Positions 46,877 to 62,672 of a DNA stretch of 64,000 bases are shown here, in pieces. Each line of letters starts with the position of its first letter. Position 1 is the stretch's first letter. The notes beneath the pieces are model-generated. The model did not search any database. It was not told the DNA's origin and saw only the letters and a program-made list of their open reading frames with translations. Origin of the DNA: Alistipes sp. dk3624 (lineage in GTDB: Bacteria; Bacteroidota; Bacteroidia; Bacteroidales; Rikenellaceae); NCBI RefSeq assembly GCF_009557455.1, contig NZ_CP045651.1:2914001-2978000 (forward strand). The letters are read 5' to 3'. The translations under genes were made by a program, and so were the position numbers.

Positions 46877-48775
46877 CTATTTGACCGTGTAGATAAAATT
46901 GAAACGCGCTCCCGGCGCAGCGTCGCCGCAGGTATAAAACTGCGAGGCGTTGTATTCGGGTTTGCCCGATTCTGTATTTTTCGGCATGTTGTCCACCCAT
47001 TTGAATTCGAGGTCGATTTTATCCTTGATTCCGAGTATCGACCGTTTCATCCGAATCGCCATTTTGTTGCCTTTGACGACGTAATCGAAATCTCCGGCTT
47101 TATCCCATTCGCATTTGCCTCCGACGTTTTTCGAGACGGTTCCGGTCGATGCGTCCGGCGTTTCGTAATTGACGACGTAGTCGTAGCCTTCCCATCCGGT
47201 CGATTTGTTCCGGTCGATGTCGATGAAAAGCATCATCCAGTTTTCGTCCTGCGGAGAGGTCATCGCCGAAGCGGTTTCGACATAGAAGTAGATGTATTCG
47301 GCATCGCGGGCGATTTTCGCATCGACGATATCGTTGCGTCCCAGCGAGCTGTTGTAATACTTGTCGGCATGCCCGGCGTGGGCCCGCTTGATCGCGTTTC
47401 CCTTGTAGTGCCTGAAGTCGGGTTTCACGTCTGTCCAAGCTGCCATCGAGTCGAGTTTGATCGTTTTGGCTTCCGACGCATATTCGCGCTGGGTCATGCC
47501 TTTGAATTTACGCACGTTCTGGATCAGTTGGTAATAATAGGTGTCTCCCCTGTAATTGCCGTCGGCGTCCCACCATTCGTTGTTCGGTTCGATGTCCCGG
47601 CTGTGTTCCCAATCGAATTGGTCGACGAACGAGAACGGGTCGCCCTGCCATCCCGTATCCCATTTCCCGGCGATGTATTCGTTCCATCCGGTGACGAAAA
47701 TCAGGTACGGATCGAGCTGGATGCCGCGGTCCCATTGTTCCTGGAAATTGGCTCCGTACAGGTAAGAGTCCGGGCGCGTGTCCCAACTTTTGTTCTTTCC
47801 CGTGTAGCTTCGTCCCAACGTACCGGGAATATTGAATGCGCTGGCATGGTAGTAGTTCGAAGCGCAGGTATTCTGGGCTACGCCGACCGCTACTTCCTCG
47901 TTATAGGCGTATTTGTTCTGCGGGTAAATCTCCAGCCAGCCCCACTGGGTGTTGTTCGAAGGGCCGTTGACGTAGTCCGCCTGACCGGGCCGGAATGTGA
48001 AGAAATTCTTCATTTCACGGTCTTCGGCGTTGTTCGTCGGGATGTTGTCGTTATAACCCATCAGCATCGGCTTGCCCTGCCAGGTGAACCAGAGGTTCTG
48101 GTATTTGCGGACTTTATACACGTCGTTGTACAGCCTTTTGATCATGTCGTACGATGCGTCGCTCGGCCCGAAAGGAAGCAGGAACGAAATTTTCGGGACT
48201 TTCACGCCGTCCTTACGCGCCTGATCCCAGGTTTTCATCAGGGCATTGTAAGACTCGTCCCACAGGAACGGCGCGTTCGTGCAGTCGAAGAACACGACGT
48301 CGACTCCGGCGTCGGCGAGCATTTCGGCATGTTTGCGCAGTACGTACGGGTCGGTCGTCCGGTAATAGCCGAACAGCGGTTCGCCCCAGAAGTGCGTATT
48401 GCTGCCTCCGCGGTCCCATACCGGGTTGTCCTTCTCCTTGATGGCATTGGGGTTCTCTTTCAAAATTTGGGAAATATTTCCGACCGTACCGTAACTGACC
48501 ATGTTGGGGTTGTGCCACGTCCAGTAGAACATGGCTATGTATTTGTTTTTCTTTTTTGTGCCGGCCTGTTCGTAGTCGGGCAGTTTGCGTCCCAGCGGAT
48601 CGGTGGCCGTCCACAGGTCGCTGTTTACCTGCGCTTCTTCGTAAACAGGACCGGGCGTATTGCCGCCGTTATCGCCTCCTTCGCCGCCGTCGCCTTTCTC
48701 CGGTTCGTCTTTCGAGCAGCCCGCCAGCAGAGCCAGCATCATCGCCAGAACGGATAGCCTTAAAAAATTTTTCAT
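46877..48775 (-). CDS. GH71/GH99-like secreted lipoprotein, array copy 1
   Basis: A 632-residue lipoprotein (ATG at 48784 would add three residues). Lipobox LLAGC followed by SKDEPEKGDGG, an acidic stretch like the surface-export signal of Bacteroidetes lipoproteins. Barrel motifs of the array are kept: WTATDPLGRKLPD, THFWGEPLFGYY, DAGVDVVFFDCTNA and FVTGWNEYIAGKW, where the others have GWNEW. HSRDIEPN ends the barrel, and a C-terminal CBM9-like beta-sandwich follows (RNDIVDAKIARDAEYIYFYV, WMMLFIDIDRNKSTGWEGYD). It is the most divergent copy and the only one with a sizeable upstream gap (121 bases) carrying a hairpin and a TATTTTTG box, so it can be expressed apart from the others. Enzymatic specificity unknown. 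Confidence 0.75.
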   Translation of the reverse strand: MKNFLRLSVLAMMLALLAGCSKDEPEKGDGGEGGDNGGNTPGPVYEEAQVNSDLWTATDPLGRKLPDYEQAGTKKKNKYIAMFYWTWHNPNMVSYGTVGNISQILKENPNAIKEKDNPVWDRGGSNTHFWGEPLFGYYRTTDPYVLRKHAEMLADAGVDVVFFDCTNAPFLWDESYNALMKTWDQARKDGVKVPKISFLLPFGPSDASYDMIKRLYNDVYKVRKYQNLWFTWQGKPMLMGYNDNIPTNNAEDREMKNFFTFRPGQADYVNGPSNNTQWGWLEIYPQNKYAYNEEVAVGVAQNTCASNYYHASAFNIPGTLGRSYTGKNKSWDTRPDSYLYGANFQEQWDRGIQLDPYLIFVTGWNEYIAGKWDTGWQGDPFSFVDQFDWEHSRDIEPNNEWWDADGNYRGDTYYYQLIQNVRKFKGMTQREYASEAKTIKLDSMAAWTDVKPDFRHYKGNAIKRAHAGHADKYYNSSLGRNDIVDAKIARDAEYIYFYVETASAMTSPQDENWMMLFIDIDRNKSTGWEGYDYVVNYETPDASTGTVSKNVGGKCEWDKAGDFDYVVKGNKMAIRMKRSILGIKDKIDLEFKWVDNMPKNTESGKPEYNASQFYTCGDAAPGARFNFIYTVK

Positions 48776-48833
48776 ACGTATCATACATTTGAAATTTTAG
48801 GGAAATTGGTTAATAGTTGTATTCGTAAAATTA

Positions 48834-48841
48834 CAAAAATA
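48834..48841 (-). promoter_or_regulatory. Putative -7 box for array copy 1
   Basis: Minus-strand TATTTTTG, exact TAnnTTTG match, in an AT-rich gap ~60 bases before the start of copy 1; no -33 TTTG at 19 bases. Confidence 0.4.
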
Positions 48842-48855
48842 TTTTTTCGGGACAA

Positions 48856-48891
48856 CCGGATTCCGGCAAGAAACGTTCTGCCGGAATCCGG
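48856..48891 (-). terminator. Hairpin between array copies 2 and 1
   Basis: Perfect 13-bp stem CCGGATTCCGGCA / TGCCGGAATCCGG, 10-base loop, 15 bases past the stop of copy 2. Lacks an immediate T-run on the minus strand, so attenuation or an RNA-stability element is as likely as full termination. Confidence 0.55.
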
Positions 48892-48905
48892 CCGATCCGA
48901 AGATT

Positions 48906-50792
48906 TTACTTTTTGAATTGGTAACGGTAACGGAACCGCCCGTTCGGGGCGGCGTCTCCGTCGGTCAGGCACTCTTGGATGTCGCCTTTGGATACGGCGT
49001 TGTCGATCCATTTGAAGTCGATCTTGAAGTCCCGGACGTTTTTGATTCCGAGGCTCGCCATCGGGATCGCGAGTTCCATTTCGCTGCCTTCGACCCGGTA
49101 GCTGATCTCCTGCTGCGTTTCCCAGTTCCAATTGCCGCGGCATACGGCCAGCGAGGTGGTCGTTTCGTCGGTCACCTCGCCGTTGATCATATACTGGAAA
49201 TGTTCCCAATTCGGCTTGTCGCTTCCGATTACGTTGATAAACAGTCGCATCCAGTTCTTGTCCTTGTACGGCGTGATATCCGACGCGGTTTTTACGTAAA
49301 AGTAGAGGTAAGTGCCGTCATTAGCGACTTTCGCCTGGACGATGTCGTTGCGGCCGGTCGTATTGACCAACTGTCCCATGCGTCCGTATCCGAAATGATT
49401 CCGGAAAGCGATGTCGCCCTTGTCGTCGGCGTAAGCCGCCTGCACCGGTTTCCATTCGTCGGTTTGGCCGTCGATCCGGATGGTGTCCGTCGTCGTGAAC
49501 GTAGGCGACGGTTTGGTTCCTTTGAAACGACGGATGAAGTCGGCCATCTGGTAGTAATAATTATCTCCGTAATCGCCTCTCAGCGGTTCGATGTCGCGGC
49601 TGAACTCGTGGTTGTACTGGTCGACGAAGTAGGAGCCGCCGGCGGGCAACGGTTTGCCCAGCATGTAATCTCCGCCGCTTTTGGAGATAAACCGTTGGGC
49701 GACCCATTCGTTCCAACCCGTAAAGAACAGGAATTGCGGATCGAGGGTATACGCCCTTTCGAACTGCGCCTTGAAATGGATGCCTTCTCCCGAACGCAGG
49801 GCGCTCGGTCCCGGCTGCACCTGGGTGTTTACGTTGTAACTGCGGCCGATGTTCGAGGTGGGGTGGGTCGCCGGCATCACCGAAACGCATTCGCGGACGC
49901 CGTTGTGCGTGCCTACTTTTTGCGGGTAGACCGATCCCCAGGGCCATTTGTCTTCTCCGTTGCCGAACCAGGCGTCCGCCGAACTGTTGTTGCTCAGAAA
50001 CCAGGCGTGGCGGATCGTAAAGAATCCTTTGACGGTCGACGAAACTTCGTCCGGGTTACAGAGCAGCAGCGGTTTGTGATCCCATTGGAACCAGAGGTCT
50101 TTGTACAGTCCCCGCAGGTAAATGTCCCGGTACACGGAATGTGCTGTCTCAGATGCGCCGGAGTGCACAACGAACGCGAATTGGGGCGTTTGAGAGCCTT
50201 CTTTGCGCATCGCCGTATAGACGTCTCCTACCTTTTTGACTACGTCGAGGTAGGTGAATCCGTTGGTTACGTCGAACAGCACCACGTCGACGCCGGCATC
50301 GCTGAGCATCTGGGCGTGTTTGCGGATGACCCATTCGTCGTCGGATACGTAGTACCCCATGTAGGGTTCTCCCCAGTGATGGAAAATGTTTTCGGGCCCC
50401 AGTGCCGGATCGGTCGGATTCGCATTGAGCAGCTTCTGGATGTCGTAAGGACTTTCCACATCGGTTGCGGACGGCTTCTGAACGCCGCCCGTGTAGGTCG
50501 GCAATCCGGTGTCGTACGAGTGGCATCCCAGCCACAGGAAGTAAAAAATGCCCACTGTTTTTTCTCCGCGGGTTTCGGGCGTTTCGTAATTCACGCCGGG
50601 TTCGATGGTTCTGTCGAGGCCGTCGACCGACGTCCACGACAGGGGATCCACTTCGGCGATCACTTCTTCGGCGGGAGGCGTGGGATCGGGTCCGGGGTCT
50701 GGCCCTGGACCCTGGTTATCGGAATTTGTCTTGTCGTCTTTGCACCCGACGGTCAGCAGCGTGCAAAGGAGCACGCAAACGAATTTGTTCAT
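48906..50792 (-). CDS. GH71/GH99-like secreted lipoprotein, array copy 2
   Basis: A 628-residue protein. Lipobox LLTVGC followed by KDDKTNSD (surface-export-like), then a Pro/Gly/Asp linker with repeated PGPDPGPDP. The barrel has VGIFYFLWLGCHSYD, IFHHWGEPYMGYY, DAGVDVVLFDVTNG, FFTGWNEWVAQRF and EFSRDIEPLRGDYG. The C-terminal CBM9-like module contains RNHFGYGRMGQLVNTTGR, YLYFYVKTASDITPY and SDGDAAPNGRFRYRY-like ends (here LTDGDAAPNG). A TIM-barrel glycosidase of the GH71/99-like superfamily is the best guess, with the Glu of GWNEW and of HWGEP as candidate catalytic residues. It follows copy 3 by 34 bases on the same transcript. Confidence 0.75.
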   Translation of the reverse strand: MNKFVCVLLCTLLTVGCKDDKTNSDNQGPGPDPGPDPTPPAEEVIAEVDPLSWTSVDGLDRTIEPGVNYETPETRGEKTVGIFYFLWLGCHSYDTGLPTYTGGVQKPSATDVESPYDIQKLLNANPTDPALGPENIFHHWGEPYMGYYVSDDEWVIRKHAQMLSDAGVDVVLFDVTNGFTYLDVVKKVGDVYTAMRKEGSQTPQFAFVVHSGASETAHSVYRDIYLRGLYKDLWFQWDHKPLLLCNPDEVSSTVKGFFTIRHAWFLSNNSSADAWFGNGEDKWPWGSVYPQKVGTHNGVRECVSVMPATHPTSNIGRSYNVNTQVQPGPSALRSGEGIHFKAQFERAYTLDPQFLFFTGWNEWVAQRFISKSGGDYMLGKPLPAGGSYFVDQYNHEFSRDIEPLRGDYGDNYYYQMADFIRRFKGTKPSPTFTTTDTIRIDGQTDEWKPVQAAYADDKGDIAFRNHFGYGRMGQLVNTTGRNDIVQAKVANDGTYLYFYVKTASDITPYKDKNWMRLFINVIGSDKPNWEHFQYMINGEVTDETTTSLAVCRGNWNWETQQEISYRVEGSEMELAIPMASLGIKNVRDFKIDFKWIDNAVSKGDIQECLTDGDAAPNGRFRYRYQFKK

Positions 50793-50826
50793 GGGTGTGT
50801 TTTAGGTTATTAAAATTCAGACGTTT

Positions 50827-52638
50827 TTATTTTTTAAATTGGTAGCGGTAGCGGAAGCGTCCGTTCGGCGCGGCGTCTCCGTCCGAGAGACATTCCTGGA
50901 TATCGCCTTCTTCGACCGCATTGTCGATCCATTTGAAGTCGATCGCGAAATCGTTCGCATTCGCGATTCCGATCGCCTGGGCGGGAACCGCCACGACCAG
51001 TTCGTTGCCGGCGACCCGGTAGTCCAGATCGGCGATTTTCTGCCAGTTCCAGCCGTTCAACGACTTTTCGAGGCTCGTTTTATTGTCGGTCACGTCGTTG
51101 TTGATCCGGTACTGGAAACCTTCCCAGTTACCCGATTCGCTGCCTTTGACATCCAGGAACAGCCGCATCCATTTCGGATCGGAGAACGGGGTTACCGGCG
51201 CTGCCGTGCGGACGTAGAAATAGAGCGTTTTGCCGTCGTTGGCGACTTTTGCGGTCAGAATGTCGTTCCGTCCCGTGTTGTTGACGTACTGTCCTACGCT
51301 TCCGTAACCGTAATGGTTCCGGTGGAAGACATCCCCTTTGTCGTCGGCGAATTCCGCTTTTACTTTGTTCCATGCCTGCATGTCGCCGAGGTCGATCGTC
51401 TGGTAAGCCGAATAGACCGGCGTCGGTTCCACGCCTTTGTAGCGGCGGATGAAGTCGCAGAGTTGGTAGTAATAGTTGTCGCCGAAGTCGCCGCGTAGCG
51501 GTTCGATGTCGCGGCTGAACTCATGGTTGAAAAGATCCACGAAATAGCTGTCCCCTTTTTTGCAATCGTATTCGCCTACTTTATGGATGCCGCCCGGATT
51601 GACGAACCGCATGGCCGTCCACTCGTTCCAGCCGGAGAAGTAGATGAATTCCGGGTCGACCTCCATGGCGCGTTCGAACTGTTCCCGGAAACAGAGCCCT
51701 TCGCCGGAGCGCCAGTGCTCTTTGTCCGGCTGCGCGCCGTCATGATAGCTGCGTCCCACCTGTTTCATGTCGTTCGTAACGATCGGGTGCGTCGCGGGCG
51801 ATACCGCGATCATCTCGGGTTTGTCGGGACGGTCGTGCCAGCCGTATTTCTGCGGATAGATATCCGCCCACGGGCATTTGTCGTGTCCGTCGCCGAACCA
51901 GTCCCATGCCGAGCAGAACCACGAATGACGCACGGTGAAAAAGCCGGCCATGTCCGGCGTGATTCCTTCCGGCGGACAGAAGATCAGCGGCTTGCCTTTC
52001 CAGCGGAACCACAGCTCTTTGTACAAATTTTTACCGTAGAAGCTGTCGAACAGGTTTTCCAGCGTTTCCTTGGCGTTGGTGTTGAAGATAAACGAGATTT
52101 GCGGGGTTTTGTTTCCCTCCTTACGCATTTTGGTGTAGACGTCGCAGATTTGTTTGACCACAGGCAGGTAGATCGCCTGGTTGGTTACGTCGAACATGAT
52201 CATGTCCACGCCTGCGTCGGACAGCATTTGAGCATGCTTGCGGATGACCCATTCGTCGTTGGCGACGTAATAGCCCAGGTAGGGTTCGCCCCAATGATGC
52301 ATCGCGTGTTCCGCGCCATATTGCGGATTCTGCGGGTTCGCATCGATGATTTTCTGGTTGTCGTACGGACTCAGCGAGTCGGCTGCGGTGGGAACCATCA
52401 CTGCATTGTCGGGGTTCGATGCCGGTCGGTCGTATCCGTGCACGCCGTGCCAGATGACGAAAAACATGCCGACGACCTTGTTTTTGCGGGGTTTGCCGTA
52501 TTGATCCGTCGTACCGATTTTACGACCCAGCGCATCCTGCGCCGTCCAGGTATCCGGTTTGGTCTGCGCCGGGGCTTCCGTCCCGATTGCCGTCAGCAAA
52601 GCGGACAGCAAAAGCGCCGAGATAGTGGTTTTTTTCAT
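50827..52638 (-). CDS. GH71/GH99-like secreted protein, array copy 3
   Basis: A 603-residue protein with an ordinary signal peptide (MKKTTISALLLSALLTAIG, cleavage near APAQ). Barrel motifs: WTAQDALGRKIGTTDQYGKP, VGMFFVIWHGVHGYD, MHHWGEPYLGYYVANDEW, DAGVDMIMFDVTNQ, ATHPIVTN, YFSGWNEWTAMRF and EFSRDIEPLRGDFGDNYY. CBM9-like C-terminus from ~residue 405 (HRNHYGYGSVGQYVNNTGR, LYFYVRTAAPVTPF). Its ATG lies two bases after the stop of copy 4, indicating tight coupling. Substrate unknown; GH99 relatives act on alpha-mannans and GH71 on alpha-1,3-glucans, but family membership is inferred from fold motifs only. Confidence 0.75.
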   Translation of the reverse strand: MKKTTISALLLSALLTAIGTEAPAQTKPDTWTAQDALGRKIGTTDQYGKPRKNKVVGMFFVIWHGVHGYDRPASNPDNAVMVPTAADSLSPYDNQKIIDANPQNPQYGAEHAMHHWGEPYLGYYVANDEWVIRKHAQMLSDAGVDMIMFDVTNQAIYLPVVKQICDVYTKMRKEGNKTPQISFIFNTNAKETLENLFDSFYGKNLYKELWFRWKGKPLIFCPPEGITPDMAGFFTVRHSWFCSAWDWFGDGHDKCPWADIYPQKYGWHDRPDKPEMIAVSPATHPIVTNDMKQVGRSYHDGAQPDKEHWRSGEGLCFREQFERAMEVDPEFIYFSGWNEWTAMRFVNPGGIHKVGEYDCKKGDSYFVDLFNHEFSRDIEPLRGDFGDNYYYQLCDFIRRYKGVEPTPVYSAYQTIDLGDMQAWNKVKAEFADDKGDVFHRNHYGYGSVGQYVNNTGRNDILTAKVANDGKTLYFYVRTAAPVTPFSDPKWMRLFLDVKGSESGNWEGFQYRINNDVTDNKTSLEKSLNGWNWQKIADLDYRVAGNELVVAVPAQAIGIANANDFAIDFKWIDNAVEEGDIQECLSDGDAAPNGRFRYRYQFKK

Positions 52639-52640
52639 GA

Positions 52641-54488
52641 TTATCGGGTTTTATCAGGTTGTTGTTCGAAAATATATCGGTATCTGAACCGTCCGTTGGG
52701 CGCGGCGTCTCCGTCCGAGAGGCACTGTTGGATGTCTCCCTGGTCGACCGCGTTGTCGATCCACTTGAAATCCACGGTGAAGCTCTTCGGATTTTTCATT
52801 CCGATCGCGGCGAACGGAACCGCAACGACCATTTCGTTGTCCGAGACGCGGTAATCCAAGTCGGCGATCTTTTCCCAATTCCATCCGTTGCGCGACCGCG
52901 ACAGCGCGGTTTTCGATTCGTCGGCGGCCGGATTTCCGACCGCATACTGGAATCCTTCCCAGTCGGGCAGCTCGGAGCCTTTCACGTCGATGAACAGCCG
53001 CATCCATTTCGGGTCGGTGCAGGGCGTGATCGGCCGGTCGGTGCGGACGTAGAACCACAGCGTTTTTCCGTCGTTGGCCATTTTCGCTTCGACGATGTCG
53101 TTGCGTCCGGTCGTATTGATCAACTGTCCGATCCGTCCGTAACCGAAGTGGTCGCGGTGGAACGTGTCGCCCCGGTCGTCCGCGTAAACGGCTTTGACCT
53201 GCTGCCAGGTCGTCATGTCGCCCGGGTCGATTCGGTGAATGTCCGAATGTACCTCGATCGGTTCCACGCCTTTGTAGCGGCGGATGAAGTCGCAGAGCTG
53301 GTAGTAGTAGTTGTCGCCGAACCCGCCGCGCAGCGGTTCGATGTCGCGGCTGTATTCGTGATTGTAGTCGTCGCAGAAATAGCTGTCTCCGATTTTACAC
53401 TCGTTATTTGCCAGGGTCAGGATCTCGCCCTGATTGATGAAGCGCATCGCGCTCCATTCGTTCCATCCGGTGAAGAACAGGAAATCCGGATCGACCTCCA
53501 TGGCCCGCGAAAACTGTTCGTTGAAATGGAGTCCTTCGCCGGAGCGTTGTTCCGCTTCGGTCAGCGGTTGGCGGCCGTTGTGAAAGCTTCGGCCGATCCT
53601 CTGTACGCGATCCCGGCGATCGGTAGGATGGGTGGCGGGAGCGACCGACATCATTTCGGCGACGTTCGGGTCTTCGTCCCATCCGTAGTTCTGCGGATAG
53701 TAGTCCGCCCAGGGGCAGCAGCGCTGGCCGTCGCGGAACCAGGGTTCCCGCGAGTCGAACCAGCAGTGGCGCGTCGTGAAAAACGCATCCATTTCCGGAG
53801 TCAGCGCTTCCCGGGGGCAGAATACCAGCGGTTTGCCCTGCCAGCGGAACCACAGTTCTTCGTACAGTCCTTTCGAATAGATGTTGTCGTACATCTTTTT
53901 CAGCGTCTCTTTGCCGTTGGGCAGCAGCGTGTGGAATACGCACGAGATCTGCGGCGTCCGGTTTCCTTCGCTGCGCATTTTCCGGTAAACTTCCATCAGC
54001 TTGGTCACGATCGGCAGATAGATCACTTCGTTGGTCATGTCGATGATGATAACGTCCACGCCGGCGTCGGAAAGCATTTGCGCGTGTTTGCGGATGACCC
54101 ACTCGTCGTTGGCGACGTAATAGCCCAGGTAGGGTTCGCCCCAGTGGTGGAAAGCCCCGACCGGTCCGTACTGCGGGGCGTCCGGACGCTCGTCCAGCAA
54201 TTTCTGGATGTCGTACGGACTTAGCGTGTCGTTTTTGCCGGGGACGATCACATCCATGTCGGGGCGCGCTTCGTAGTGGTCGTATCCGTGCGCACCGTGC
54301 CAGACGACGAAGAACATGCCGACCGTTTTGCCCGGACGCGGTTTTCCGTACTGAGCGTCCGTGCCGATCGTGCGTCCCAGCGCGTCCTGCGCCGTCCAGG
54401 TCGGCGGCACGACCTGCGCCGCAGCCGCCCCGCCCGTTATACTCAGCAAGCAGACGAGGCGTAGTATTCTGAATTTTATCGTTTTCAT
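52641..54488 (-). CDS. GH71/GH99-like secreted protein, array copy 4
   Basis: A 615-residue protein, signal peptide MKTIKFRILRLVCLLSITGG. Barrel: WTAQDALGRTIGTDAQYG, VGMFFVVWHGAHGYD, FHHWGEPYLGYYVANDEW, DAGVDVIIIDMTNE, FFTGWNEWSAMRF and EYSRDIEPLRGGFGDNYY. The C-terminal ~200 residues are almost identical to copy 5, differing at only a few positions (E/G, M/V and S/N) before the last residues, where copy 4 ends RYRYIFEQQPDKTR. The identity covers about 690 bases of DNA and stops sharply within the barrel. The frame runs open upstream into copy 5, but the signal peptide sets the start at 54488. Confidence 0.75.
   Translation of the reverse strand: MKTIKFRILRLVCLLSITGGAAAAQVVPPTWTAQDALGRTIGTDAQYGKPRPGKTVGMFFVVWHGAHGYDHYEARPDMDVIVPGKNDTLSPYDIQKLLDERPDAPQYGPVGAFHHWGEPYLGYYVANDEWVIRKHAQMLSDAGVDVIIIDMTNEVIYLPIVTKLMEVYRKMRSEGNRTPQISCVFHTLLPNGKETLKKMYDNIYSKGLYEELWFRWQGKPLVFCPREALTPEMDAFFTTRHCWFDSREPWFRDGQRCCPWADYYPQNYGWDEDPNVAEMMSVAPATHPTDRRDRVQRIGRSFHNGRQPLTEAEQRSGEGLHFNEQFSRAMEVDPDFLFFTGWNEWSAMRFINQGEILTLANNECKIGDSYFCDDYNHEYSRDIEPLRGGFGDNYYYQLCDFIRRYKGVEPIEVHSDIHRIDPGDMTTWQQVKAVYADDRGDTFHRDHFGYGRIGQLINTTGRNDIVEAKMANDGKTLWFYVRTDRPITPCTDPKWMRLFIDVKGSELPDWEGFQYAVGNPAADESKTALSRSRNGWNWEKIADLDYRVSDNEMVVAVPFAAIGMKNPKSFTVDFKWIDNAVDQGDIQQCLSDGDAAPNGRFRYRYIFEQQPDKTR
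52677..53370 (-). repeat. Near-identical block shared by array copies 4 and 5 (copy A)
   Basis: The 3' ~690 bases of copy 4 match 54538-55231 of copy 5 almost base for base, covering the CBM9-like domain and the SRDIEP end of the barrel. Outside this block the two genes are clearly diverged. Confidence 0.85.
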
Positions 54489-54517
54489 AGATAGGTTTGT
54501 TGGGTTTGTTTGCCGGG

Positions 54518-56347
54518 TTATCTGCTGAAGGCGTATCGGTATCTGAACCGTCCGTTGGGCGCGGCGTCTCCGTCCGAGAGGCACTGCTGGATGTCTCCCT
54601 GATCGACCGCGTTGTCGATCCACTTGAAATCCACGGTGAAGTTCTTCGGATTTTTCACTCCGATTGCGGCGAACGGAACCGCAACGACCATTTCGTTGTC
54701 CGAGACGCGGTAATCCAGGTCGGCGATCTTTTCCCAATTCCATCCGTTGCGCGACCGCGACAGCGCGGTTTTCGATCCGTCGGCGGCCGGATTTCCGACC
54801 GCATACTGGAATCCTTCCCAGTCGGGCAGCTCGGAGCCTTTCACGTCGATGAACAGCCGCATCCATTTCGGGTCGGTGCAGGGCGTGATCGGCCGGTCGG
54901 TGCGGACGTAGAACCACAGCGTTTTTCCGTCGTTGGCCATTTTCGCTTCGACGATGTCGTTGCGTCCGGTCGTATTGATCAACTGTCCGATCCGTCCGTA
55001 ACCGAAGTGGTCGCGGTGGAACGTGTCGCCCCGGTCGTCCGCGTAAACGGCTTTGACCTGCTGCCAGGTCGTCATGTCGCCCGGGTCGATTCGGTGAATG
55101 TCCGAATGTACCTCGATCGGTTCCACGCCTTTGTAGCGGCGGATAAAGTCGCAGAGCTGGTAGTAGTAGTTGTCGCCGAACCCGCCGCGCAGCGGTTCGA
55201 TGTCGCGGCTGTATTCGTGGTTGTAGAGATCCCAAAAATAAGTGTCACCCTCTTTCAGATCCCGGTCGCCGCACTTGAGAAAGTCGTTGTGGTCGATGAT
55301 CCGGATCGCCGTCCATTCGTTCCATCCGGCGAAGAAGACAAATTCCGGATCGAGCTCCATTGCTCGCGAGAACTGTTCGGCGAAACAGAGCCCCTGCTCC
55401 GAATGTTGATGCGCCTTGTCGGGTTGCTGTCCGTTGTGGTAGCTGCGTCCGACGCGGCGTACGCGTCCTCCGTCGGTGATCGGGTGGGTGGCCGGAGCGA
55501 CCGAAACCGCTTCCGGCTTATCGGGCGATTCGTGCCAGCCCGCATTCTGCGGATAGTAGTCGGCCCACGGCCATTTGTCGCGTCCGTCGCCGAACCACTC
55601 CCACTCCGGAAGCGAGCAGAACCACGAATGCCGGATCGTGAAAAAGTCGGCGAACTGCGGCGTTACGTCCTGCGGAGGGCATAGGATCAGCGGTTTCCCT
55701 TTCCAGTAGAACCATAGATCTTTGTACAGTCCTTTTGCGTAAAAATTGTCGTACAGACGTTGGACGGTCTCCCGGGCCTGCGTGTTGAAGATGAATGACA
55801 GTTGCGGGGTTCTTCCGCCTGCTTCCCGGATCTGCGTATATACTTTGCAGAGGTTTTTCAACTGCGGCAGGTAGATCACCGCATTGGTCAGGTCGACGAT
55901 GATGACGTCCACGCCCGCATCGGTCAGCATTTGCGCGTGTTTGCGGATTACCCAATCGTCGTCGGCCAGGTAGTAACCCAGGTAGGGTTCTCCCCAGTGA
56001 TGGAATACCCACTGCGGTCCGTATTGCGGATTCTGCGGATTTTCGGTCATCAGTTTCTGGTTGTCGTACGGACTCAGCGTATCGGTCGGCTGCGGAATGC
56101 GGACGCCTTCGTCGGGCAATTGCTTCATGTAGGTGTCGTAACCGCTCGTGCCGTGCCAGATGACGAAGAACATGCCGACCGTTTTGCCCGGTCTCGGAGC
56201 GCCGTACTGTTCGGTCGATCCGATCGTGCGTCCCAGTGCATCCTGCGCCGTCCATGTCTGCGGGCGCGTCGCGGGGGGAGCGCAAAACAGCGTTTGCGGC
56301 GTCGTCAGAGCAGTTGCCAGTAAGATGCTTAGGTAGAGTTTTTTCAT
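54518..56347 (-). CDS. GH71/GH99-like secreted protein, array copy 5
   Basis: A 609-residue protein, signal peptide MKKLYLSILLATALTTPQ. Barrel landmarks: residues 32-48 (TAQDALGRTIGSTEQYG), FHHWGEPYLGYY with HWGEP at 117-121, DAGVDVIIVDLTNA with D152, FFAGWNEWTAIRI with GWNEW at 341-345, and SRDIEP at 380-385. The CBM9-like domain spans ~412-609. First array gene in the direction of transcription, 83 bases after the GH43 gene with a hairpin between them. The conserved acidic residues in HWGEP and GWNEW are the best catalytic candidates. These names rest on motif resemblance to GH71/GH99/WbsX-like barrels, not on a clear family hit. Confidence 0.75.
   Translation of the reverse strand: MKKLYLSILLATALTTPQTLFCAPPATRPQTWTAQDALGRTIGSTEQYGAPRPGKTVGMFFVIWHGTSGYDTYMKQLPDEGVRIPQPTDTLSPYDNQKLMTENPQNPQYGPQWVFHHWGEPYLGYYLADDDWVIRKHAQMLTDAGVDVIIVDLTNAVIYLPQLKNLCKVYTQIREAGGRTPQLSFIFNTQARETVQRLYDNFYAKGLYKDLWFYWKGKPLILCPPQDVTPQFADFFTIRHSWFCSLPEWEWFGDGRDKWPWADYYPQNAGWHESPDKPEAVSVAPATHPITDGGRVRRVGRSYHNGQQPDKAHQHSEQGLCFAEQFSRAMELDPEFVFFAGWNEWTAIRIIDHNDFLKCGDRDLKEGDTYFWDLYNHEYSRDIEPLRGGFGDNYYYQLCDFIRRYKGVEPIEVHSDIHRIDPGDMTTWQQVKAVYADDRGDTFHRDHFGYGRIGQLINTTGRNDIVEAKMANDGKTLWFYVRTDRPITPCTDPKWMRLFIDVKGSELPDWEGFQYAVGNPAADGSKTALSRSRNGWNWEKIADLDYRVSDNEMVVAVPFAAIGVKNPKNFTVDFKWIDNAVDQGDIQQCLSDGDAAPNGRFRYRYAFSR
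54538..55231 (-). repeat. Near-identical block shared by array copies 4 and 5 (copy B)
   Basis: Partner of the block at 52677-53370. Differences are scattered single bases; identity breaks at GTATTCGTG(A/G)TTGTAG, just 5' (in gene sense) of the SRDIEP region. Confidence 0.85.
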
Positions 56348-56383
56348 AGATTAGGTTTTAAGGTCGTAGGTTTGCAGGTTAAA

Positions 56384-56414
56384 GGAACAGCCGGAGTCCG
56401 ACTCCGGCTGTTCC
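56384..56414 (-). terminator. Hairpin between GH43 and the array
   Basis: GGAACAGCCGGAG / CTCCGGCTGTTCC, 13 bp or more, followed on the minus strand by TTTAA. Probably attenuates read-through from the GH43 genes into the array. Confidence 0.6.
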
Positions 56415-56430
56415 GGTCGTATCGGGTCGT

Positions 56431-57741
56431 CTACTGCTTTCCGAAACGGAACGCGTCGACCGTAAACAACTCGTCTGCGTCTTTGTCGCCGGTGAAACGC
56501 AGCGTCAGGGCATGTACCCCCTTGACAGGCTGTATTTTTGCGGTCAGCGTGACCGGTTTCCCGTCGTCCGACGCCGGAACATCGACGACGCCTACCGGCG
56601 GGGTCCACAGGTTGTCGATCCATACTTCGATCTTGCCTCCGGCTTTCGGGGTGACGTCCACCGTAAAGCTGTCGGCCCCGTCTCCGAAATCGAGGTATTT
56701 ATAGACGGCGTAATTTTCGTTCTGTATGCCGCTCAGTTCTTCGTTATCCGGTGCGCAGAGGCGTATCCGCGTATTTCCCCACAGCAGACACGCCCGTTCC
56801 GCCCCGGTTTTGTCGAATGCGTTCAGCGGATCGCCGGCTCCCTGAGAGGTCATTTCCACTTCGTTGATGCTTCCGTCTTCGTTGAATGTGATCGGTTCCA
56901 TACAGGCTTTGCGCATCGACCGAGCGCCGTTCGTCGTCCGGTGGTAGAGTACGTACCATTGTCCGTTGAACTCGCAGATCGAGCCGTGGTTGTTCCACGA
57001 TTCGGGATCGCATCCGGCGTTATCGACGATTACGCCGCCGTATTTGAACGGTCCGAGCGGCGATTTCGACGTCGCATAGCCGATGCAGGTCGGACGTCCT
57101 TTGCGCAGGTGAGCGTAAACCATGTAATAGATTCCGTTGCGCTTGCGCATACTGCTGCCTTCGTGGAAAAAGTGATCTTTTTCAGTGACCAGTCCGTCTA
57201 CTATCGTCGTAGTGTCCACTTCCAGCATGTTGTCTTTCAGTTTGGCCCCTTTGGCCGAGAATTGCCCCCAGTAGAGGTACGCCTGTCCGTCGTCGTCGAC
57301 GAAGACCGCCGGGTCGATCTGCGAAATACCTTTCATCGGCTGACCGTTTTTGAACGGTCCGTCGGGCGAGTCCGATACAGCCACGCCTTCGTCGATCGCG
57401 TCCCGCATACTGTAATATAAATAGTATTTGCCGTTTTTGTAAGCGGCGTCCGAAGCGTAGAGTTCGCCGTCGCTGTACGGAACCTGGTCGTTCGGCCCCT
57501 TCGAGGCGAAAGCGTTTTTGGTGATCTTCCAGTTTTTCAGGTCGGATGTCGACAGCAGGTCGTAACTCCACGAACAGTAGTAGTCCGGGCTTTCGTCGCG
57601 CGAAACGTAGAGGTACAGTTTCCCGTCCTTCCATTGGTGTCCTTCGGGATCGGCCAGGTATACTCCCGGCGGAACGATCGGGTTTTGTCCGTAAAGCGTG
57701 CCGCAAGCCAGCAGGCCGGCAATAAACAGTGATTTTTTCAT
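56431..57741 (-). CDS. GH43 family glycosidase with C-terminal CBM6-like domain
   Basis: A 436-residue protein with signal peptide MKKSLFIAGLLACGTLYGQ. Five-bladed propeller with the GH43 triad: base Asp in VYLADPEGHQWKDGKLYLYV, pKa-setting Asp in SQIDPAVFVDDDGQAYLYWG, acid Glu in FFHEGSSMRKRNGIYYMVY. Residues ~315-436 are a CBM6-like beta-sandwich (IQNENYAVYKYLDFGDG, KIEVWIDNLWTPPVG, LTLRFTGDKDADELFTVDAF). GH43 enzymes are mostly arabinofuranosidases, xylosidases or galactosidases; the exact bond is not predictable. Expressed 68 bases after the second GH43 gene. Confidence 0.9.
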   Translation of the reverse strand: MKKSLFIAGLLACGTLYGQNPIVPPGVYLADPEGHQWKDGKLYLYVSRDESPDYYCSWSYDLLSTSDLKNWKITKNAFASKGPNDQVPYSDGELYASDAAYKNGKYYLYYSMRDAIDEGVAVSDSPDGPFKNGQPMKGISQIDPAVFVDDDGQAYLYWGQFSAKGAKLKDNMLEVDTTTIVDGLVTEKDHFFHEGSSMRKRNGIYYMVYAHLRKGRPTCIGYATSKSPLGPFKYGGVIVDNAGCDPESWNNHGSICEFNGQWYVLYHRTTNGARSMRKACMEPITFNEDGSINEVEMTSQGAGDPLNAFDKTGAERACLLWGNTRIRLCAPDNEELSGIQNENYAVYKYLDFGDGADSFTVDVTPKAGGKIEVWIDNLWTPPVGVVDVPASDDGKPVTLTAKIQPVKGVHALTLRFTGDKDADELFTVDAFRFGKQ

Positions 57742-57809: not shown

Positions 57810-58844
57810 TTACGGTACCGGCTGCGGCGTCGAAGTCGGGCCGTCCGTCTTCAGTTTGCCGTTTTTGTCGAAGAACAGCCGGTCGATGCACACCACCCGG
57901 TCGAACGATGGTTTCCGGCAGTCGGGATCGGCGTGACGGTGATAGACGATCCATAGTTTCCCGTCCTTCGTTCGGACGATCGAGTTGTGTCCCGGAGACG
58001 ATACTCCTTTACTCAGGTCGGTCGTCATCAGCGGGTTGTCGTCGTATTTCGTCCACGGGCCGAGCGGGTGGGGGGCCGTCGCGATCCCGATTCCGTAGAA
58101 CTCGAATCCGGTATCGTTGGCCGAGTAGGTCATATAATAGGTTTTCCCTTTTTTGATGACGGTGACCCCTTCGTTGCAACGGTTTACGTTCCAGCGCACT
58201 TTTTCCCACGGTTGCGATGCACGTGAGACCAGCCGCGGTTCGCCGACCATTCCCGAAAGATCCTTTTTCAGTTCCACGACGTAGTTCTCTCCGTATCCAT
58301 AACCGTCCTGATTTCCGTTTTTGCTGAAGTACAGGTAGGGCGTTTTCGCTTTGTCGTCGTCCACGAAAATATGGCAATCGATGGCCGAATATCCCAGGTC
58401 GAACCACGGCGTATAAAGTTCTTCGAACGGCCCGTCCGGCGTGTCGCTGACGGCCAGGCACGACAACAGTACGCCCCGTTCGGCGTTCAGGCAACTGTAC
58501 GTCATGTAGAATTTTCCTTTATAGTACTTTACCTCCGGAGCCCAGAATGCCCCGGCGCCGAAATGCCCGGCCGATTTGCGAAACAGCGGCCCCCCGTATT
58601 CCCACGTCACGAGGTCTTTCGAGGTATAGTAATCGAAACCGCAGTCTCCGGCCGTGGTTCCGGTCATGTAATAGGTACCTTTGTATTCGTATACGAACGG
58701 GTCGGCGACTTGCAACACTTCTCCGTCGGTCGTCCGTACCGGATTCGTGTACGTGTCTTTTTCGGATTCCGGATTTCGGGCGCTGCCGTGCGTAGCAGGC
58801 GCCAGTAGACTGCATAATAAGAAAACGAGGATTGTGTTTTTCAT
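57810..58844 (-). CDS. GH43 family glycosidase (single-domain)
   Basis: A 344-residue protein with signal peptide MKNTILVFLLCSLLAPATHG. GH43 propeller: base Asp in LQVADPFVYEYKGTYYMTG, GAFWAPEVKYYKGKFYMTY, pKa Asp in YSAIDCHIFVDDDKAKTPYL, acid Glu in RCNEGVTVIKKGKTYYMTYS, and PGHNSIVRTKDGKLWIVYH. No carbohydrate-binding module. Different subgroup from the neighbouring GH43 protein, so the two probably cut different linkages of one glycan. Starts 19 bases after the HAD gene stop. Confidence 0.9.
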   Translation of the reverse strand: MKNTILVFLLCSLLAPATHGSARNPESEKDTYTNPVRTTDGEVLQVADPFVYEYKGTYYMTGTTAGDCGFDYYTSKDLVTWEYGGPLFRKSAGHFGAGAFWAPEVKYYKGKFYMTYSCLNAERGVLLSCLAVSDTPDGPFEELYTPWFDLGYSAIDCHIFVDDDKAKTPYLYFSKNGNQDGYGYGENYVVELKKDLSGMVGEPRLVSRASQPWEKVRWNVNRCNEGVTVIKKGKTYYMTYSANDTGFEFYGIGIATAPHPLGPWTKYDDNPLMTTDLSKGVSSPGHNSIVRTKDGKLWIVYHRHADPDCRKPSFDRVVCIDRLFFDKNGKLKTDGPTSTPQPVP

Positions 58845-58863: not shown

Positions 58864-59793
58864 TTATTGAATTGCAGAATTGGTGCGGTTTTGCGGAATT
58901 CCGTATGCCTTACATGCCCAGTCGTAACCTTCGTCCGGCACGTCGTTGCAGCGGACGGCGATCGTATTCGGGTTCGTTTCCCAGAAAGCCTTTACCGTTT
59001 TGCCGCCCATCGCCTCTTCGGGTTTCGTGTCGTCCGGGTTGACGATTACGCGCAGACCGACCGATTCGAGCATCATCTCCATGTCTCCGCGCGAGTTGCC
59101 GCCGACCAGGATCGGCCGGGCCTTAATAAAGGTGTTGAGCGCTTCGGCTTTACCGGCGTCCTGCGGGATCGGACGCACCGTTTCGTCGGTGACGATCCCG
59201 TCGCGGATGCAGGATTTGACTCCGATGATCCGGTCGACCGGAATCCCCAGCTCTTCGTGGATAAACCGCTGGTACAATAGTTCAGGAGAGGCCGTAATCA
59301 CCCAGATTTCGATGCCGTATTCCTCGAGGTTTCCGAGCAGTTCTTTCATCTCCGGATAAAATTTCCGCTGGAATTTGTCGTGGAAACACTCCCAGCCGAC
59401 CCGGCACATCTCGTCGGGAGTCATTCCGGCATAGAACCGGATGTAATTTTCGATGTAGGAGAAAGTGACGTTGTCCCCGTCGATCAACTGCCGGCAGACC
59501 GCCCACTTCGTTTTCGAATTTTCATCCTTTTTGCCTTCGTAATTTTTACGGGCGAAATCGTAAGTGGCTTCGTCGGCGAGGTAGTACGGCGTTTGGCCGA
59601 GCAGCGTGCCGTCGCAGTCGAAAACGGCTACCTTGCGTTCTTTCATCGTGCGGGTGGAGTTCAGAAACGATTCCAGTTTCCGGTTCGTTTCGGCGGAGAA
59701 GCCGGCGATCGGGCGGTAAGTTTGGGCGTTGACGCTCCATGCCAGCATCGCGAAAACGAGCGGTGCGATCGACCGGAAGGTTTTTTTGATCAT
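58864..59793 (-). CDS. Exported HAD-superfamily (SerB-like) phosphatase
   Basis: A 309-residue protein, signal peptide MIKKTFRSIAPLVFAMLAW. HAD motif I KVAVFDCDGTLLGQ (DxDGT), motif II WVITASPELLYQRF, a Lys in DAGKAEALNTFI, and motif IV LVGGNSRGDMEMM. SerB-like class IB with a helical cap (KTKWAVCRQLIDGDN, YIRFYAGMTPDEM). A periplasmic phosphomonoesterase role follows from the signal peptide; a phosphorylated sugar released by the downstream glycosidases would fit, but this is inference. First gene of the minus-strand hydrolase operon; ATG 59793 is preferred over 59814. Confidence 0.87.
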   Translation of the reverse strand: MIKKTFRSIAPLVFAMLAWSVNAQTYRPIAGFSAETNRKLESFLNSTRTMKERKVAVFDCDGTLLGQTPYYLADEATYDFARKNYEGKKDENSKTKWAVCRQLIDGDNVTFSYIENYIRFYAGMTPDEMCRVGWECFHDKFQRKFYPEMKELLGNLEEYGIEIWVITASPELLYQRFIHEELGIPVDRIIGVKSCIRDGIVTDETVRPIPQDAGKAEALNTFIKARPILVGGNSRGDMEMMLESVGLRVIVNPDDTKPEEAMGGKTVKAFWETNPNTIAVRCNDVPDEGYDWACKAYGIPQNRTNSAIQ

Positions 59794-59866
59794 GTCGGTT
59801 CGGGTTTGAAACAATATACGGATTACAGATATGGTATAAGTCGATTCTGAAAAACGATTCGGATGT

Positions 59867-60895: not shown

Positions 60896-61675
60896 ATGAA
60901 ACATTTATTATTGTTGAGTGCCTGGTGCGTGGGGGTATGCGCGGGCGCCGCCGGTCAGGATGCCAAAAAATACCCCGATCCCGCGCCGATGACGCACGAC
61001 ATGTCCGAGTTCTGGACGCCGCAACCGAAAATCGTTACGCCTCCGGATATGGACAATGCGGTGGTTGCGCCGCCGTCCGACGCCGTCGTTCTGCTGGGGC
61101 TGAAAGACAACGCGATTAGCGAATGGGTAAACTGCGAGGAGGGCAAGCCCGTCGGCTGGCAGATCGAGAATGGGATCATGACCGTCAAGCCGCACTCCGG
61201 CAGCATCCGCACGAAAAAGGATTTCGGCGACTTCCAGTTGCACCTCGAGTGGAGCGCACCGACCGAAATCGTCGGCGAAAGCCAGGGACGCGGCAACAGC
61301 GGCGTGTTTATGCAAGGCATGTACGAAGTGCAGATTCTCGACAACTACCAGAACGAAACCTATGCGAACGGCCAGGCCGGGAGTATCTACAAGCAGACTC
61401 CGCCGCTGGTGAACGCCTGCCAGAAACCGGGCAAATGGAATACTTACGATATTATCTATACCGCTCCGCGTTTCAAGGAGGACGGCTCGCTGCAATCGCA
61501 CGGGCGCATTACCGTGCTGCATAACGGTGTTTTGGTGCAGAACAATACGATGATTCTCGGAACGACCGAGTTTATCGGTTTCCCGCGGATCGTCGCGCAC
61601 GGCAAGGGCCCGATCATCTTGCAGGATCATTTGAATCCGGTGCGTTTCCGCAATATCTGGATCCGCGAACTGTAA
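60896..61675 (+). CDS. DUF1080 (3-keto-disaccharide hydrolase/lyase-like) secreted protein
   Basis: A 259-residue protein, signal peptide MKHLLLLSAWCVGVCAGAAG. Concanavalin-like DUF1080 fold: GWQIENGIMTVKPHSGSI, DFQLHLEWSAPTEIVGESQG, GNSGVFMQGMYEVQILDNYQ, GSIYKQTPPLVNACQKPGKW, ITVLHNGVLVQNNTM, GPIILQDHLNPVRFRNIWIR. Members cleave glycosides already oxidised at C3, by hydrolysis or beta-elimination. The required dehydrogenase and hydratase-like partners are candidates at 37047-40629. Follows the lipoprotein gene by 38 bases. Confidence 0.9.
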   Translation: MKHLLLLSAWCVGVCAGAAGQDAKKYPDPAPMTHDMSEFWTPQPKIVTPPDMDNAVVAPPSDAVVLLGLKDNAISEWVNCEEGKPVGWQIENGIMTVKPHSGSIRTKKDFGDFQLHLEWSAPTEIVGESQGRGNSGVFMQGMYEVQILDNYQNETYANGQAGSIYKQTPPLVNACQKPGKWNTYDIIYTAPRFKEDGSLQSHGRITVLHNGVLVQNNTMILGTTEFIGFPRIVAHGKGPIILQDHLNPVRFRNIWIREL

Positions 61676-61754: not shown

Positions 61755-62672
61755 ATGTATAGAAAAACGATTTTGAAGGCTGCGCTGCTGCTGGCATGCG
61801 TCGTCTGTTTTCCCGGTGTGTCCTGCGCCCGCAGACCGATCCGGGCGTTGATCGTCACCGGGCAGAATAACCACAACTGGCCCGTCAGCCACCGGGCGTT
61901 GCAGGCCATCCTGCAAAATTCCGGACTGTTTGCCGTCGATCTGGCGGTTTCTCCGCCGCAGGGCGGCGATATGGATGCTTTTGATCCCGATTTTAGCGCC
62001 TACCGGGTGGTGATCCTGGATTATAACGGAGACCGCTGGAGCGCTTCGACCGAGCGGCGTTTTCTGGATTATGTCCGCGACGGAGGCGGGGTGGTGCTCT
62101 ACCACGCCGCCGACAATGCTTTTCCCGATTGGGAGGAATTTAATCGTATTGCCGCTCTCGGAGGTTGGGGAGGCCGCGACGAGCGTTCCGGCCCGTACCT
62201 GTACTGGAAGGACGGAAGTTTGGTAAGAGACACGACGAAGGGGCCCGGAGGCTCGCACGGCGAACAGCGCGAATACTCGATGAATGGCCGTAATGCCGAA
62301 CATCCGGTTGTCCGGGGATTGCCCGGGCGGTGGATACATGCGACCGACGAGCTGTACGATCGGATGCGCGGTCCGGCCAATGTCGCGGAATTGCTGTACA
62401 CGGCCTATGCCGATCCCGGACGAGGAGGTTCCGGACGCGAGGAACCGTTGGTTTTTACCGTCGATTACGGGAAAGCCCGCATATTTCACTTGATGATCGG
62501 TCATGCGGGACCGAGTCTCGAAGACAATCCGGCCATGCAGTGCACGGGGTTTCAAACGTTGTTGCTGCGCGGGTCGGAATGGGCCGCTACCGGGAAAGTC
62601 CGTCAGCGGGTCCCCGACGACTTCCCGACGGAGCGGAAAAGCAGTTTGCGTAAGGATTATCGGAAGCCTTGA
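61755..62672 (+). CDS. ThuA-domain exported protein
   Basis: A 305-residue protein, signal peptide MYRKTILKAALLLACVVCFP. ThuA-like glutamine-amidotransferase-like fold: PIRALIVTGQNNHNWPVSHR, YRVVILDYNGDRWSASTERR, FLDYVRDGGGVVLYHAADNA, EYSMNGRNAEHPVVRGLPGR, FTVDYGKARIFHLMIGHAGP. ThuA proteins accompany disaccharide and 3-keto-sugar catabolism (trehalose utilisation in rhizobia), though their chemistry is unresolved. Third gene of the plus-strand unit, ending at a strong terminator. Confidence 0.88.
   Translation: MYRKTILKAALLLACVVCFPGVSCARRPIRALIVTGQNNHNWPVSHRALQAILQNSGLFAVDLAVSPPQGGDMDAFDPDFSAYRVVILDYNGDRWSASTERRFLDYVRDGGGVVLYHAADNAFPDWEEFNRIAALGGWGGRDERSGPYLYWKDGSLVRDTTKGPGGSHGEQREYSMNGRNAEHPVVRGLPGRWIHATDELYDRMRGPANVAELLYTAYADPGRGGSGREEPLVFTVDYGKARIFHLMIGHAGPSLEDNPAMQCTGFQTLLLRGSEWAATGKVRQRVPDDFPTERKSSLRKDYRKP

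Follow-up and report, generated by a model that had tools for sequence, protein, structure and literature searches.

The window analysed here is a 64,000-nt stretch of the Alistipes sp. dk3624 genome (assembly GCF_009557455.1; bases 2914001-2978000 of NZ_CP045651.1, the single contig of a 3.02-Mb genome), and it contains an array of five genes, g1 to g5 (positions 46877-56347, minus strand). According to their predicted fold, the products of these genes are an uncharacterised branch of the GH99/GH71 superfamily to which a CBM9-like sandwich is attached. One acid of the catalytic dyad known from GH99 and GH71 is replaced in every distinct full-length relative examined, and gene conversion has kept the C-terminal domains of some tandem copies alike up to the domain border. 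Taking the whole chain of reasoning together, we give about an even chance to the view that the proteins are specialised glycosidases whose active site has changed and which share a common C-terminal domain; they would act together with pentosidases on a plant-type glycan. The anatomy of the array, the fold and the conversion are much surer than this function; we infer catalysis and the acid that performs it, the substrate, the cell location and the reason for the conversion.

The initial annotation of the array, made from the sequence alone, had described five consecutive paralogues of about 600 residues. This description was borne out: g1 to g5 are intact open reading frames of 603-635 residues, arranged head to tail and transcribed in the order g1 to g5, with intergenic gaps of 29, 2, 34 and 121 nt. 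All five proteins align from end to end, and their identities to g3 (66% for g1, 65% for g2, 55% for g4 and 36% for g5) are far above chance. The motifs that had been proposed to unite them are shared only in part. SRDIEP is indeed kept in all five array proteins, but WTAQDALGR and HHWGEPYLGYY are exact in g1-g3 only (g4 has WTSVDGLDR and HHWGEPYMGYY, and g5 has WTATDPLGR and HFWGEPLFGYY), and GWNEW reads GWNEY in g5.

The fold was studied on an AlphaFold model of g3 (mean predicted local distance difference test score, pLDDT, 94.6). In model comparison the barrel of g3 matched GH99 chains with Z scores of 18.8-19.6 over 252-278 residues, GH71 with 14.8-15.4 and entry 5ngw with 17.5, and other barrels reached at most 12; a look in the literature and at the sequence gave no identity for 5ngw. 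The C-terminal domain (residues 403-603; pLDDT 91.4 when folded alone) resembled CBM74 (Z 11.5), BACUNI_03838 (10.1) and CBM9 (9.8 and 9.6) over 156-184 residues, and a Foldseek search matched it to CBM9 with an E-value of 2.4e-3 and a probability of 1.00. These comparisons assign a GH99-type (beta/alpha)8 barrel and a CBM9-type fold to the predicted structure, as had been proposed for the array. In the profile searches that had been suggested as a check, none of the five window members reached a cut-off in Pfam or NCBIfam, and g2 alone listed PF16317 (GH99), with 19.2 bits against a cut-off of 33; WbsX (PF14307), also on the list of candidates, is a separate Pfam family. With a threshold of E<=0.01, 52 of 75 relatives nevertheless touched the GH99 model, the best of them at 1.9e-6. 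When a profile of these 75 relatives was compared with the PDB, GH99 structures were matched (4acy, E 6e-6), and the N-E-W of the family, including the first Glu of the dyad, was aligned onto the N-E-W of GH99. For the C-terminal domain, Pfam gave no match and a sequence profile against the PDB nothing usable; its likeness to CBM9, CBM74 and BACUNI_03838-type domains is one of fold.

Residues were counted in 137 distinct sequences (158 matching frames, of which 146 are full length; 12 partial ones were excluded). According to PMC12394665 and PMC13421300, the dyads of GH99 (EWHE) and GH71 (DYGE) share the form D/E-x-x-E. All 137 sequences have the first Glu (E339 in the numbering of g3). At the second position 136 of them have Ala and the remaining one has Met, so that neither the E-x-x-E of GH99 nor the D-x-x-E of GH71 occurs in any of them. 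Membership of GH99 or GH71 was rejected on this ground. Because the dyad is broken throughout, it cannot work in the known manner: a different carboxylate must take its part, unless the proteins are binders that do not cut. Eighteen positions are invariant in all 137 sequences (F59, D145, D150, N153, P262, E275, G314, W337, N338, E339, F366, D368, R376, D387, K401, G402, W423 and D572 in g3 numbering), and a signature of this pocket-like type that stays frozen across several phyla fits an enzyme. Other acids are common without being fixed (E118 in 112, E373 in 124, D377 and E379 in 129 each), and 20-47 residues (median 31) separate the dyad position from SRDIEP. PMC12394665 further indicates that one dyad supports two mechanisms in the superfamily, retaining in GH99 and inverting in GH71.

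The array family thus resembles GH99 (endo-alpha-1,2-mannosidase/mannanase) in its barrel and its N-E-W with the first dyad Glu, and differs from it by the Ala or Met at the second position, the 20-47-residue insert that follows and the additional CBM9-like domain. To GH71 (alpha-1,3-glucanase) it is related by its barrel (Z about 15). GH71 also has a C-terminal beta-sandwich, which may or may not be of the same type; the DYGE dyad is absent from the array family, whose sandwich resembles CBM9/CBM74. WbsX-type single-barrel proteins are likewise GH99-like, and four Pedobacter loci (L027, L038, L041 and L068; loci of relatives carry L numbers and genomes G numbers) have one of them next to a pair of family genes, but they belong to another Pfam family, and no C-terminal domain was seen in a 397-residue example. 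NCBI CDD also has GH99_GH71_like subgroups, of which the array family may be one. The literature yielded no account of this family or of such conversion in bacterial glycosidases, although the results of several searches were broad and off target, which makes this weak evidence of absence. A 349-residue single-barrel relative is encoded elsewhere in the source genome (L094:8143-9192, at ~1.49 Mb). It has SWNEWTT and SKDIEP with almost no insert (8 residues lie between NEWTT and SKDIEP), lacks the C-terminal domain and scores 29.7 bits against the GH99 cut-off of 33; it is possibly a link between the array family and GH99.

In a tree of the 137 sequences, g1-g3 form one clade (A1), g4 belongs to a second clade (A2) together with Bacteroides and rumen members, and g5 falls in a third, distant clade (B), which also holds a second array of the same genome. 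Two related species of the genus (G002 and G005) have a triplet A1-A2-B at the syntenic place, the members of which are 27-55% identical to each other by domain. Judging from these two relatives, the triplet would be the older state, and A1 now comprises three genes in the species studied here. The proposed tandem amplification to five therefore applies to the threefold A1 lineage, but not to the array as a whole, since the triplet consists of three old lineages. The source genome contains 13 full two-domain family genes at five places, namely the window array, a group at ~1.89 Mb with four genes in tandem and a fifth nearby, and isolated genes at 0.12, 2.04 and 2.65 Mb; two weaker relatives are present at 0.72 and 1.49 Mb. 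Distribution of the family is patchy: it occurs in 12 of 61 genomes of the set of relatives and in 5 of 9 in the genus (the source genome being counted in both), and in 2 of 198 Bacteroidota genomes, source included, at E<=1e-60. Bacteroidota, Verrucomicrobiota, Planctomycetota, Armatimonadota, Bacillota and others are represented among the matches listed. A more distant family-profile match (G000:C1:723096-724109) lies in a 699-residue open frame, with similar matches in three relatives, and a member from a Tannerella metagenome-assembled genome (L025:8001-9743) is interrupted by a single in-frame stop codon.

The near-identity of g1 and g2, which the initial annotation had not mentioned, is confined to their C-terminal third. 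Over the barrel (355 codons) the two proteins are 62.8% identical (synonymous divergence, dS, 0.935; nonsynonymous divergence, dN, 0.29), and over the C-terminal domain (213 codons) 98.6% (dS 0.037, dN 0.006); the switch falls just past SRDIEP, which is the domain border. Barrels within the array are 34-67% identical. That of g2 is orthologous to the single A1 gene of the two related species, and is 84% identical to the orthologue L014a and at most 62-63% to g1 and g3; the C-terminal domain of g2 is 67% identical to that of L014a. The same contrast between barrel and C-terminal dS was found in a tandem pair of G005 (L111; 2.61 vs 0.19) and in the second array (L091; 1.08 vs 0.24, 0.95 vs 0.29 and 0.83 vs 0.38). 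It was weaker in other L091 comparisons (1.19 vs 0.66 and 1.01 vs 0.81) and in L030 (1.44 vs 0.67); L074 did not show the pattern, and no such excess of identity was found in L013 and L014.

Separate trees of the two domains are in agreement with these values: the L091 barrels group with those of other species, and the L091 C-terminal domains with each other. In approximately unbiased (AU) tests, barrel trees that held the four L091 members together (p 3.3e-40), or g1 with g2 (3.9e-5), were rejected. So were C-terminal trees that placed g2 with L013/L014 (9.7e-5) or L091 members with their barrel orthologues (4.1e-5 and 6.6e-6). For L111, a common group of its barrels is not rejected (0.40), and the grouping of its C-terminal domain with L092 is weakly rejected (0.016). 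These p values are optimistic because the groups were named post hoc, with the trees already seen. Between the orthologues L013a and L014a the C-terminal domain changes faster than the barrel (dN 0.072 vs 0.020, at dS 0.81 and 0.78), and constraint therefore cannot explain the sameness of C-terminal domains within arrays. Slow evolution of this domain in place of conversion was also rejected on the dS evidence. Accordingly, we count the conversion among the observations, next to the anatomy, the predicted fold, the broken dyad, the lineages and the neighbours of relatives.

The N-termini suggest that g4 and g5 are lipoproteins, the latter carrying a signal for surface export, and that g1-g3 are periplasmic. 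PMC5080379 gives C-X-K-(D/E)2 as the surface export signal of lipoproteins. The N-terminus of g5 (AGC-SKDE) fits it, and in that of g4 (VGC-KDDK) the Lys comes one place early. Lipobox-type N-termini are also present on the counterparts of g4 and g5 in G002 and G005; g1-g3 have ordinary signal peptides as judged by eye. If g4 and g5 are lipoproteins and g1-g3 periplasmic, cutting could start at the surface and end inside.

Neighbours of relatives were profiled from clusters of neighbouring genes, of which representatives were checked against Pfam (GH78, GH106, sulfatase, GH43, WbsX, DUF5722, SusC-type, SusD and hybrid two-component regulator, HTCS). Counts refer to 74 of the 78 GTDB loci among the matches listed; L025, with its internal stop, and L052, L057 and L081 were left out as having partial members only. 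At 18 of the 74 loci a rhamnosidase gene (GH78 or GH106) is no more than 8 kb away from a family gene, and at 15 no more than 300 bp; by group the loci are 15 of 39 in Bacteroidota and 3 of 35 elsewhere. GH43 is found at 8 loci, SusC/SusD at 11 and sulfatase at 10. The association with GH106 was also counted in a set of 13 genomes (12 of one Pedobacter/Mucilaginibacter/Chitinophaga clade plus L015, with L035 and L068 left out). In nine of these a GH106 gene is at most 8 kb from a family gene, against 0.17 expected; 1-6 GH106 genes were counted per genome, two GH106 fragments aside. The set was picked by clade once the neighbours of that clade had been seen, and the nine cases may all go back to a single operon that was inherited, instead of being separate events. 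In the window genome itself a rhamnosidase is found at two of the five family places. The second array (L091) adjoins genes for an HTCS, a TonB-plug (SusC-type) protein, SusD and GH106. The link to a rhamnose-bearing glycan is fair for the family; for the window array, with its GH43 partners, it would follow from the relatives.

Together, these results suggest how specialised glycosidases might work here. The conserved Glu (E339 in g3) would pair with an acid that lies at another site of the pocket, for which the candidates are D150 of the conserved D-x-T-N or E373, D377 and E379 beyond the 20-47-residue insert. The older triplet A1-A2-B would have stood downstream of two pentosidase-type GH43 genes, with A1 becoming threefold in this species, and cutting would begin at the cell surface (g4 and g5) and finish inside (g1-g3). 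Distinct barrels may serve distinct linkages of one plant-type glycan bearing pentose and perhaps rhamnose; the several related linkages proposed initially agree with barrels that, from their sequences, appear to be kept distinct. By keeping the C-terminal domains of an array similar, gene conversion would ensure that all its members bind a common ligand or partner. Several observations weigh against this proposal. Besides the lost second acid described above, 25 of the 35 loci outside Bacteroidota are uninformative, and the profiles found rhamnosidases at only the three already counted. In 12 relatives of the window genome a rhamnosidase is found at 13 of 43 clusters against 5.7 expected (nominal P 0.0025), which is a modest excess in a count that includes non-independent orthologous loci and excludes weak matches to the tail and, where a gene is split, its second half. 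At the window array itself no rhamnosidase partner was found, and profiles of SusC and SusD gave nothing at E<=1e-3 in the 64-kb window or in L095, which reaches 16 kb past it.

The main alternative, which we regard as distinctly less probable than specialised glycosidases though well worth considering, is that the proteins are non-catalytic relatives of glycosidases that bind a glycan with the barrel cleft and the CBM9-like domain and present it to the GH43 enzymes, or elsewhere to SusC/SusD and rhamnosidases. The universal loss of the second acid, the lipoprotein-type N-termini of g4 and g5, the SusC/SusD genes beside the second array and the homogenised C-terminal domains, which suit a common ligand, would all be accounted for. 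A pure binder would have no need, however, of a first dyad Glu that is unchanged in 137 of 137 sequences, g1-g3 look soluble and periplasmic, and family members often lie in loci without any other listed glycosidase. That the array merely supplies more of one enzyme is improbable: there are three A1 genes here and one at the syntenic place in the two relatives, but the divergence of the barrels, and the closer relation of the g2 barrel to its orthologue than to g1 and g3, point to old, separately kept genes. Still less likely is mere sequence drift of standard endo-enzymes of the GH99 or GH71 type, acting as alpha-mannanase or alpha-1,3-glucanase. The fold is the same and the GH99 profile touches most relatives, but the dyad is kept in none of the 137, substitution of either dyad acid in AnGH71 lowered activity 200- to 15,000-fold according to PMC12394665, and the genes nearby encode pentosidases or rhamnosidases and no enzymes for mannan or glucan. 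Finally, strong protein constraint or misassembly in place of conversion has hardly any credit, even though some other tandem pairs also have similar C-terminal domains, because silent sites are nearly unchanged too (dS 0.04 vs 0.94), the C-terminal domain is the faster one between orthologues, the domain trees conflict, the g1 and g2 copies still differ from each other and the genome is assembled as a single contig.

A further step, which we take only tentatively and hold to be somewhat less probable than specialised glycosidases as such, is that the array belongs to a new glycosidase family that uses half of the GH99/GH71 dyad with an acid from elsewhere, and forms a cassette system in which barrels diversify for different linkages and the common binding domain is copied from neighbour to neighbour by conversion that ends at the domain border. 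An acid absent from every examined member, within a signature frozen across phyla, asks how catalysis is rebuilt or becomes binding. The association with GH106 and GH78 in relatives provides a testable class of substrate, and domain-limited conversion, found here in two arrays and, in another species, in one tandem pair, offers a visible route by which specificity could be varied while a common binding module is kept.

The coordinates of the array and its flanking genes are listed below.

Features of the g1-g5 array and of the genes upstream of it (window positions)
Feature	Position	Strand	Remarks
g1	54518..56347	-	609 aa; GH99/71-like barrel and CBM9-like domain (predicted); lineage A1
g2	52641..54488	-	615 aa; architecture as g1; lineage A1
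g3	50827..52638	-	603 aa; architecture as g1; lineage A1; protein used for the structure model
g4	48906..50792	-	628 aa; architecture as g1; lineage A2; D/G/P-rich linker
g5	46877..48784	-	635 aa; architecture as g1; lineage B (distant)
C-terminal part of g1, near-identical to that of g2 (approximate stretch)	54521..55120	-	
g2 stretch 98% identical to g1 54534-54833 (one of several)	52675..52974	-	
GH43 + CBM6	56431..57741	-	PF04616; the closest relatives of solved structure carry the annotation xylan 1,4-beta-xylosidase; synteny kept in the two related species
Second GH43	57810..58844	-	PF04616; nearest solved relative 4qqs; syntenic in two related species
HAD-type phosphatase	58864..59814	-	Signal-like N-terminus; no counterpart at the syntenic place in either related species

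The gap between g4 and g5 (48785-48905, minus strand) contains a strong predicted hairpin (-43.1 kcal/mol for the gap), on the basis of which g5 may be transcribed apart from g1-g4. Folding also gave a strong hairpin in the gap before g1 (56348-56430), and the two may split the cluster into separate transcripts. Promoter- and terminator-like patterns were no commoner than in shuffled sequences.

Two GH43 genes and a phosphatase had been described as bundled with the array. All three are present, but the phosphatase lies outside the conserved unit. Both GH43 genes, upstream of g1 and in the direction of the array, match PF04616 (E 1.3e-42 for GH43-CBM6 and 6.4e-53 for the second), and their solved relatives are GH43s of the xylosidase/arabinofuranosidase type and 4qqs. 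G002 and G005 share the neighbourhood (LeuA-type, ThuA, DUF1080, lipoprotein, GH43, GH43-CBM6, A1, A2, B and FolC-type genes), with a single A1 gene and without the phosphatase and the two other A1 genes. The phosphatase was rejected as a member of the unit and is probably foreign to it because these otherwise syntenic loci have no counterpart. The reported lack of SusC/SusD holds for the window locus and is not a trait of the family, as the second array demonstrates. Like Bacteroidota polysaccharide utilisation loci, the locus clusters secreted glycan enzymes, and the second array adjoins HTCS, SusC and SusD genes; unlike them, the window locus lacks the SusC/SusD pair.

The array is also flanked by genes for a Gfo/Idh/MocA oxidoreductase (39373-40629), a 3-keto-disaccharide hydrolase (DUF1080; 60896-61675) and ThuA (61755-62672), the latter two being syntenic in the two related species. 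A look for a link of the 3-keto-glycoside type gave raw occurrences, uncorrected for background. At a distance of up to 8 kb from a family gene, DUF1080 occurs in L013, L014, L018, L051, L083 and the window (L097 and L105 being duplicates of L013 and L014), and Gfo/Idh in L022, L051, L061, L063, L073, L077, L088, L103, L112 and the window. In L018 the DUF1080 gene stands directly between GH106 and the family gene. One locus of G042 (L125:1-14565) carries, on one strand, GH78, GH78, a family gene, GH106, GH78, a family gene and GH78. A conserved protein of ~714 residues without a Pfam match adjoins family genes in three phylogenetically distant loci (L036:4703-6847, L074:9923-12022 and L089:10412-12559); in L089, and likewise in L098, L106 and L119, DUF5722 is found on the other side.

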